From NCBI GenBank assembly GCA_031261165.1, contig JAISJU010000024.1:1-36138 (forward strand): a DNA stretch of 36,138 nt. The letters run 5' to 3'. Position numbers and translations under genes: made by a program. Positions 22,302-24,788 of the stretch are shown one piece after another (the stretch's first letter is position 1; each line of letters starts with the position of its first letter). The notes beneath the pieces were generated by a model that saw nothing but the letters and a program-made list of their open reading frames with translations, was not told the origin of the DNA and searched no databases. Source of the stretch: Prevotellaceae bacterium. Lineage in GTDB: Bacteria; Bacteroidota; Bacteroidia; Bacteroidales; Paludibacteraceae.

Positions 22302-22402
22302 TTGAAAATCAAATATAAATTCGTAATATTGCAATCGAAATTTAAACAAAAAATATAAGATAAAAAAACAGACATTTAGCGTAGAAATACGCAGGACATA
22401 TT

Positions 22403-22574
22403 AAAAATAGCGATTACTGCTATTCTTGACTATCATTTTCCACACTTGTAATCCATTTGGATTACTACCTCAAGAATAAGTTAGTGAAACGCCGTGTGTT
22501 ACGGCGTGGAATAACTTGCCAGAGGTAGAGGCGTGGAAACCTGATAGTCAGACAGGTTGTTCCGCGCTATTTTT
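22403..22574 (+). ncRNA. structured ncRNA candidate, rod-like with open central bubble
   Basis: Nested pairings: AAAAATAGCG/CGCTATTTTT, TTGACTATCA/TGATAGTCAG, TTTCCAC/GTGGAAA, hairpin GTAATCC-attt-GGATTAC, TACCTC/GAGGTA, AAGTTA/TAACTT, ACGCCGT-gtgtt-ACGGCGT. Confidence 0.65.
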
Positions 22575-22607
22575 ATTGATAATAAGTAACTTCTTAATTT
22601 TTATTTT

Positions 22608-24788
22608 ATGATACTTTTAAATCAAACACCACAGCGCACAAGTGCAATGGAGACCGGAAACCATTTCAAAAACGGGGCGAGTCTGAAAAGCCTAATGAGT
22701 AAGGGAAAACAATATTTGCTGTTCTTTATGCTTTTGCTAAACTCGGCAACGATGCTCGGACAAAATTTTGAATGGGCGTTGAAAGATGTAAAAAGTAGTG
22801 AGCCGTTTCATGATGGTTTGGCCAGTTTCTATGAATATGAAAGCGGGCTCTATGGTGCTATTGACCGTAGTGGACAAGTAATAATTAAACCTCAATTCAA
22901 ATCTTCTTTTGAATTTGAAAATGGTTTTGCGGTGGTTGAAACAGAAACAGGCAAAGGCATTATTAACCGTAGCGGACTGTTTCTTTTAGAGCCTGTGTAT
23001 AAATATATTTTACCAGGCCTGAATAAAATTGCTGGTCTATACACAATTGTAAACACAGAGGGAAAGGAAGGAGTTTTTTATAATAATCGTTTAGTACTAC
23101 CTGTTGTTTATAAGAGTATTTATACCGATGACTTTCCTTTTATTTCAATAGAAGAGCGCAAAATCAATCTTATTGACGGTAAAATATTTGATAAAGTAAA
23201 AAATGAAGGTGCCGTATTTATTACAGAAATCGGAAAAGAAATAAAATATTATAACAAAGATGGCGAAGAAATAAATTCACAGGTAAGCAGTAAAGGCGTT
23301 CAGTTTTTTAAAGACGAACAATCAGAAAAATATGGATTTAAAAATATTGAAACAGGTGCAATTATTACTTCGCCGATTTATGATGTATCTGACATACCTA
23401 TATTCGTTAACAATGTAATGATTGTTTCATATCGTAACCCAAAAGATAATGAAAAATCAGAGTTATTGATTGATGCAAATGGAAAAGAAGTAATTAAACG
23501 AAATCTTTTCAAATATGTGCGATATTGTACATTAGACGCTGTTTTAGTTGCTCCTTCAGCTTTTGATACCAAATACGGATTATATTCTATTACAGGAAAG
23601 CAATTATTACCTGCAATATATGGTTATATTTATTACGCAGGTCACGACTGTTTCATTGCGAAGAAAGGAGAGGAACAATTTCTCTATAATTTTCATAACG
23701 GAAAACTTTCCGATGCATACGAAACGATTTATCCTGTCGGTAAAAATAAAGAAGGAATGATAAAGGTTACAAAAAAGATTAATGGGGAAAAAGTGTGGGG
23801 ATATGTTAATAGTGAAACAATGAAAGAAATTCCTCCGCAATTTGGTTATACTTATAGTTTTTCTGAAGGACTTGCCGTAGTACAAAAAAAAGACACCAAA
23901 CGACTTTTGATAAACAAAAATGGCGAAGTAATTATGACAGATGAAAAATTTTATTTGAGTACTGAAGTTAATAACGGAGTATTGGGTGTCAAAGATAAAG
24001 AAACTCTCGAAATGGGATATATCTATGTTTCCAAAGATAGCAAATACACTTACAATCAGACAAATGTTTCCGATACTAAACTAATATATGATGTTACAGT
24101 TGAAGATTGGTTGGCAGAAGGCCATAAATATTTTGAAAAAGAAAAATATGCAACAGCCAAAGAATATTACTACAAAGTAATGATGGCTCAACCTAAAAAT
24201 ATAGATGCAATTATCAGTTATGGTGCTTGTTTGGGTAATTTGGGTTATTACGAAGAAGCACTCGAAAGTTGCAATATGGCACTTGATATTGACCCCAATA
24301 ACAAAATAGTATTAAATAATGTTGAAACTGCTCGCAAGAATATGGAAATAGAACGACAAAACGCCATAGCACAGCAAAACGCCAATAACAACCGGAGTTC
24401 TACTTTTTGGGACGCGCTTTCTTCCTTTGGTCAGGTGTTGTATGATGTCGGCTCTGCGTATAACAGCGGAGGCTCCGGCAGTTATGGTTCGGGCGGATAT
24501 TCGGACAGTTCAGGCAGTAGCGGCAGTTCTTCGAGTTGTGCCTCGTATAAACAACGCTATAACGATATGAAATACAAACGCGACCGAGAAGCCAATGGCA
24601 ACGCAGGCAGAGAAGGAACAGCCACAGGAAAAAATAAAGCTCATTCTATTGCACCTGATAAAGCAAGCGGTGCTACATCGGGAGATTACCGAGTTATCAA
24701 TGGTTCAAGAGCCTTGATACGGGAATATGAACGGCAAATGCAAAGTATTGAACGGCAAGCAAAGCAAGCGGGTTGCAGTGTGTATTAG
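22608..24788 (+). CDS. secreted WG-repeat protein with TPR domain and Ser/Gly-rich tail
   Basis: Repeated YG(A/F)I(D/N)...G..I(I)xPxF/Y units; TPR-like WLAEGHKYFEKEKYATAKEYYYKVMMAQPKNIDAIISYGACLGNLGYYEEALESCNMALDIDP. Confidence 0.8.
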   Translation: MILLNQTPQRTSAMETGNHFKNGASLKSLMSKGKQYLLFFMLLLNSATMLGQNFEWALKDVKSSEPFHDGLASFYEYESGLYGAIDRSGQVIIKPQFKSSFEFENGFAVVETETGKGIINRSGLFLLEPVYKYILPGLNKIAGLYTIVNTEGKEGVFYNNRLVLPVVYKSIYTDDFPFISIEERKINLIDGKIFDKVKNEGAVFITEIGKEIKYYNKDGEEINSQVSSKGVQFFKDEQSEKYGFKNIETGAIITSPIYDVSDIPIFVNNVMIVSYRNPKDNEKSELLIDANGKEVIKRNLFKYVRYCTLDAVLVAPSAFDTKYGLYSITGKQLLPAIYGYIYYAGHDCFIAKKGEEQFLYNFHNGKLSDAYETIYPVGKNKEGMIKVTKKINGEKVWGYVNSETMKEIPPQFGYTYSFSEGLAVVQKKDTKRLLINKNGEVIMTDEKFYLSTEVNNGVLGVKDKETLEMGYIYVSKDSKYTYNQTNVSDTKLIYDVTVEDWLAEGHKYFEKEKYATAKEYYYKVMMAQPKNIDAIISYGACLGNLGYYEEALESCNMALDIDPNNKIVLNNVETARKNMEIERQNAIAQQNANNNRSSTFWDALSSFGQVLYDVGSAYNSGGSGSYGSGGYSDSSGSSGSSSSCASYKQRYNDMKYKRDREANGNAGREGTATGKNKAHSIAPDKASGATSGDYRVINGSRALIREYERQMQSIERQAKQAGCSVY

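Follow-up and report, generated by a model that had tools for sequence, protein, structure and literature searches.

The window, by which we mean the whole 36,138-nt stretch analyzed here, carries one copy of a large and apparently uncatalogued family of switch-like leader RNAs. Judging from sequence comparison, we favor the reading that this RNA works in cis, as a 5′ leader that attenuates transcription of the gene behind it, and we give this a probability of roughly 0.7. To our knowledge, Bacteroidota have so far yielded few classes of cis-regulatory RNA.

A DNA search of the window's own genome returned six copies counting the window's own, with the others 77-89% identical. Copies were present in 4 of 61 genomes (its own and relatives), ten of them in a single genome. 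A spaced pattern of conserved strands gave 113 stretches in a species-level genome collection, nearly all from MAGs titled Bacteroidales, Bacteroidia or Bacteroidetes and, according to record titles or by inference, from rumen, horse faeces and termite gut; the pattern had no matches in viral contigs, phages or plasmids. The covariance model built from these subfamily A stretches, R2, matched 63 of 395 Bacteroidales genomes (43 of 208 genera) and revealed a divergent second subfamily, B, with the same plan. R3, the model of subfamily B, matched 106 of 396 Bacteroidia genomes (about a quarter), and five matching genomes in a draw across the phylum lay outside Bacteroidia. The family is very common, with model matches in 64 of 196 sampled Bacteroidia genera. 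The window's own genome alone holds at least 24 copies: seven of subfamily A, 13 further ones of subfamily B and four upstream of matches to DUF805 RNA. In genome G013 (loci L007 and L012-L019), a longer repeated stretch lies upstream of nearly all A copies, and behind most of them are genes for paralogous secreted proteins (MKKSILILG...AQVGINT...), which suggests that leader and gene were duplicated together.

When the window and the element were scanned with cmscan against Rfam 15 at E up to 5, nothing useful was found in or over the element, and models of 6S and Bacteroidales-1, which an earlier note on this DNA had put forward for comparison, did not match it. Rfam's sole match within the window, at 22642-22710, is to DUF805 RNA. 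Scanned homologues matched no Rfam 15 family at the element either, Bacteroidales-1 included, and no description of the leader was found in the searchable literature. One survey lists Bacteroidetes motifs, most with Rfam accessions (PMC2864571). For Flavobacterium psychrophilum, one report describes 64 structured 5′ regions, some of which are conserved and have no Rfam hits, and overlap with our family is possible (PMC9723704). As far as Rfam 15 and searchable papers reach, the suggestion that the element might belong to an undescribed class is supported.

The minimum free energy (MFE) fold of the element is -71.6 kcal/mol, which none of 200 dinucleotide shuffles reached (z -8.55). This fold is the combination of all the helices that the earlier note had read by eye, each found within one base of where it had been placed, and the small hairpin GCGTAGAAATACGC is present at 22379-22392. 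The opposite strand has a fold of similar strength (z -8.67), as the element is nearly self-complementary; since both strands fold well, direction was taken from context, namely the promoter, the U-tract and the placement of ORFs. For individual helices, z compares the two strands of each copy, folded as a duplex, with strands permuted between copies, shared ancestry being uncorrected; the A set comprises 63 non-redundant copies (<84% identity) and the B set 72 copies. The parts of the locus are as follows.

22324-22332, + strand: promoter -7 element TAATATTGC, which departs from the Bacteroidota TAnnTTTGC at one position
22353-22363, + strand: start-stop mini-ORF site, degenerate (ATATAAGATAA), with no ATG in the window copy
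22379-22392, + strand: small palindromic hairpin GCGTA-GAAA-TACGC, read from the sequence
22406-22411 with 22419-22424, + strand: H0 hairpin AATAGC/GCTATT, own versus permuted partner z -4.0
22413-22418, + strand: H0 loop ATTACT, which doubles as the 5′ strand of HI
22421-22429 with 22470-22478, + strand: HA, TATTCTTGA with TCAAGAATA, pairs kept, covariation in B
22413-22418 with 22483-22488, + strand: HI, ATTACT with AGTGAA, bulged, z in A and B
22428-22435 with 22542-22549 and 22437-22443 with 22533-22539, + strand: HB, part of the rod, z in A and B
22448-22465, + strand: HC, side hairpin GTAATCC/GGATTAC, subfamily A only
22465-22471 with 22522-22528, + strand: HD, part of the rod, z in A and B
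22478-22482 with 22513-22517 and 22489-22495 with 22501-22507, + strand: HE, apical hairpin, z in A and B
22504-22518 with 22553-22567, + strand: HG, putative terminator stem, 15 of 15 pairs, exclusive with HE
22568-22576, + strand: U-tract of the putative intrinsic terminator (TATTTTTAT), directly after HG
22608-24788, + strand: downstream gene (ORF), encoding 726 aa that include WG and TPR repeats (PF14903 WG_beta_rep, PF00515 TPR_1)
22642-22710, + strand: DUF805 RNA (RF03081), scoring 70.9 bits, where the gathering score is 51.1

The palindrome at 22379-22392 is replaced in related copies by other palindromes (GTGCTAATTAGCAC, GCGCAAGCGTGCGC); this position ahead of the element is palindromic in many termite-gut copies despite varied sequence, and the palindrome is missing in rumen copies.

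Homologues bear out the idea of a structured RNA with massive covariation, and support both predicted sets of helices in the two subfamilies. The rod stems are hypervariable in sequence yet still complementary in A and B. For HB, z is -21 in A, where a T-A to A-T swap occurs in 15 copies, and -33 (HB1) and -21 (HB2) in B; the values for HD are -26.5 and -31, and for HE -8.0 and -12.5, in A and B respectively. The side hairpin HC (z -12.4 in A) was not seen in folds of B. In a MAFFT alignment of A, 84% of cells are paired under the rod structure and at most 44% under slid versions, and changes on both sides of a pair number 288 cells compared to 158 in shuffles.

A second helix set, consisting of HA, HI and HG, is conserved as well and is partly incompatible with the rod. 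HG has z -7.3 in A, where alignment columns 129-136 and 198-205 are paired in nearly all of the 63 copies, G-C to A-U changes included, and HI has z -5.9, with several distinct pair sets. The pairs of HA are intact in about 98% of cells in A; most HA sequence in this subfamily was fixed by the search pattern, which makes B the independent test of HA. In B, where strands were cut by an alignment fitted to R3, whose own structure is without HG, HA and HI, z is -14.6 for HG, -7.9 for HI and -10.4 for HA, and HG shows swaps of its own, for example GGGGTGAGC with GCTTACCCC in L206. We regard B as an important replicate because HB has re-paired there with quite different sequence, HG persists, and a local hairpin, HF (GGCGTGGAAACC..GGTTGTTCCACGC), is impossible. 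HF had been a candidate terminator and was rejected: its own pairing in A is no better than permuted (z +0.8), and its 5′ strand is missing from B copies.

Two features of the original description have to be revised. The 10-bp closing stem P1 (22403-22412/22565-22574) does exist in the window, but homologues lend it little support (z -2.5), and it is broken in rumen copies, whose U-run is longer, so we dropped it as a defining feature. Its 3′ strand forms the tail of the conserved putative terminator, and its 5′ strand is in part taken up by the H0 hairpin. The central bubble, which had been described as open, is not simply so, as it contains the strands TATTCTTGA and ATTACT, which are conserved through pairing elsewhere.

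HE and HG both use the strand 22504-22517 and therefore cannot coexist, giving two exclusive helices that each have evolutionary support. In the window, HG pairs all 15 positions of 22504-22518 with 22553-22567, and the U-tract begins at the very next base, 22568; a U-run after HG is conserved in nearly all copies, as CTTTTTTT in rumen and B copies. The loop of HG in the window is about 34 nt, long for an intrinsic terminator. When HG alone is forced, HI and HA emerge in the fold unforced. The HG fold has -53.5 kcal/mol, so the rod is 18 kcal/mol better in the window, with a median advantage of 13 kcal/mol in B, and when the transcript is folded only to 22552 the rod is complete ahead of strand 22553-22567.

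We hypothesize that HG is the terminator and the rod the read-through state, with a signal setting the balance between the two. RNA polymerase would begin at the TAnnTTTGC promoter, and the emerging leader would normally fold as the rod (HB, HC, HD and HE) before 22553-22567 is made, resulting in read-through. In the alternative state, HA and HI would hold the 5′ strands and HE would open, leaving its freed 3′ strand to pair with the last strand and form the 15-bp HG before the U-tract, an intrinsic terminator. The signal could be a protein, a small molecule or the state of translation at the mini-ORF. Since the rod is more stable and is already complete when polymerase reaches 22553, the simplest reading appears to be that transcription reads through unless termination is induced; the reverse may hold instead. 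HA and HI might instead be tertiary contacts of a single pseudoknotted fold, with no separate state. An energy difference of this size, in the window and in B, means that switching would need a strong trigger or kinetic control. The two-state model is directly testable, as the strands to mutate are named.

The attenuator reading draws further on position. TAnnTTTGC lies 65-160 nt upstream of the element and is perfect at all seven positions in 73 of 109 copies, while the shorter TAnnTTTG occurs upstream in 87 of 108. The longest downstream ORF shares the strand of the element in 90 of 94 cases (90:4), as opposed to 49 of 86 (49:37) for the longest upstream ORF, and the gap from element to ORF has a median of 42-54 nt, with the promoter motif in only 2 of 100 gaps. 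The element thus sits between a promoter and a same-strand gene. Together, the promoter, the strand bias and the short, promoter-poor gap make a leader much likelier than a free RNA. Terminator-type attenuators and riboswitches likewise have a promoter, a 5′ leader, exclusive conserved folds and a GC-rich stem plus U-run before the gene; our leader differs from them in having no known aptamer (none by Rfam), a long-looped terminator stem, unrelated downstream genes and, in most copies, a start-stop mini-ORF.

A leader could also control translation or mRNA stability, with its alternative folds hiding or exposing the start region or a nuclease site. The ORF starts only about 40-55 nt past the element, and at B loci L143-L157 and L163-L171 there is an extra small hairpin just past the U-tract (with a TGGGACTG or GGGGCTG loop; not seen in the window copy) that, judged by eye, could pair with the CAGTTCCA terminator strand. 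We nonetheless consider this reading unlikely, as the conserved U-tract directly after HG is a hallmark of intrinsic terminators.

Termination at HG would also suit a free-standing sRNA of about 230 nt, trans-acting or binding RNA polymerase in the manner of 6S, whose neighboring gene is incidental. Such an RNA would account for the promoter, the terminator-like end and the rod shape, which the leader has in common with 6S RNA and 6S-Flavo (RF00013, RF01685). The 90:4 strand bias speaks against it, as do the gap, which is too short for another promoter and poor in the motif, and the 24 or more divergent copies that a single genome contains, and we think it quite improbable. The 6S-like character suggested by the earlier note fails on several counts and we rejected membership: no Rfam 6S model matched, the bubble strands have alternative partners in HA and HI rather than forming a single-stranded central bubble that mimics an open promoter, and the many copies in leader position, between promoter and same-strand ORF, contrast with the one or two copies per genome, independently transcribed, that are typical of 6S. 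A search with RF01685 found nothing in the window's own genome, and control genomes gave no match either. Finally, a mobile or DNA-level palindrome (MITE, REP or an attC-like ssDNA fold) that sits before genes by chance would explain the many copies per genome, the near-palindromic strands and the patchy distribution, but is highly implausible given the strict orientation to genes and promoter, the conserved U-tract, the kept mini-ORF frame, the helix swaps over a wide phylogeny and the lack of matches in phages, plasmids or viral contigs, which led us to reject a phage or plasmid element.

In most copies the mini-ORF lies close to the leader's 5′ end, following the promoter and then a stretch rich in A. 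Recurrent forms are ATGTAA, ATGTAG and ATGNNNTAA; ATGTAG, ATGTAA, ATGAAATAA and ATGATATAA are the commonest. An in-frame stop comes within one codon of the first ATG in 55 of 79 copies of A and 18 of 30 of B, compared to 6-17% for a stop in the other two frames of that ATG. That the frame is kept, with zero or one intervening codon, argues that the mini-ORF is translated. It is degenerate in the window copy and missing from copies whose promoter is too near, and therefore is not a universal sensor. We speculate that it may sense translation or simply exclude ribosomes from the folded domain. Start-stop sites and minimal ORFs have been noted in E. coli and Campylobacter (PMC11955535). There, too, a start codon is followed by a stop at once or after one or two codons; the Campylobacter sites are reported to be internal and out of frame, whereas the mini-ORFs described here occupy the same position in copy after copy of a conserved leader. 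One may ask why so many leaders retain a start codon with a stop immediately after it.

The genes behind the leader are diverse. Downstream proteins (127 representatives) fall into 122 Pfam families, none of which is found in more than five, and Pfam gave no common function among them. The families include TonB plug/SusC-type, HTH, BACON, BspA repeats, CsgG, DNA methylase and TerD, and sigma factors are also among the proteins. This diversity makes a metabolite riboswitch for one pathway unlikely and favors a general physiological cue over a single metabolite. By a crude Kyte-Doolittle measure, N-termini are hydrophobic in 40 of 52 B and 55 of 105 A cases, compared to 45% of control ORFs; with the A fraction this low, we abandoned hydrophobic N-termini as a general rule. 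In rumen Bacteroidales, a protein of 69-70 aa (MKERIKEIYSPPVIKVVEFVVEMGLGVS...) follows the leader at L028, L031, L044, L060, L068, L098, L125 and L128, with no Pfam match for the one tested (L028). As a tentative proposal, which we hold to be possible rather than probable, the family may form a phylum-wide Bacteroidota switch by which a general cue, possibly translation of the mini-ORF, sets the expression of dozens of genes in each genome that are unrelated to one another and often exported or regulatory. If true, this would be a new kind of attenuator, global in reach.

The leader is also linked to DUF805 RNA. In the window genome, 11 of 15 DUF805 RNAs (RF03081) lie downstream of a leader copy; for seven, a previously found copy lies no more than about 180 nt upstream, and the other four led to new upstream copies. 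The pairing recurs in other genomes, and the unexplained DUF805 RNA now stands in tandem with a second RNA. Rfam lists DUF805 RNA and DUF805b RNA (RF02914) as cis-regulatory, which our leader would be as well, but the DUF805 RNA is a separate sequence, about 70-180 nt further on, with no sign of homology to the leader. The DUF805 stretch is either the in-frame N-terminal part of the downstream ORF or a separate short ORF. In the window, the gene at 22608-24788 is open in frame across the match, which reads as METGNHFKNGASLKSLMSKGK, and similar in-frame N-termini occur at L004, L008, L045, L066, L236 and L240. By eye, DUF805 at L236 and L240 is a separate ORF, about 40 codons long, whose end falls at the next start codon or shortly ahead of it. 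Part of the conservation of DUF805 RNA may therefore be that of a coding sequence or leader peptide. Elsewhere in the window's own genome, a DUF3800-VIII RNA (RF03075, 66.4 bits; L184:1921-1986) lies about 1 kb downstream of a leader copy.
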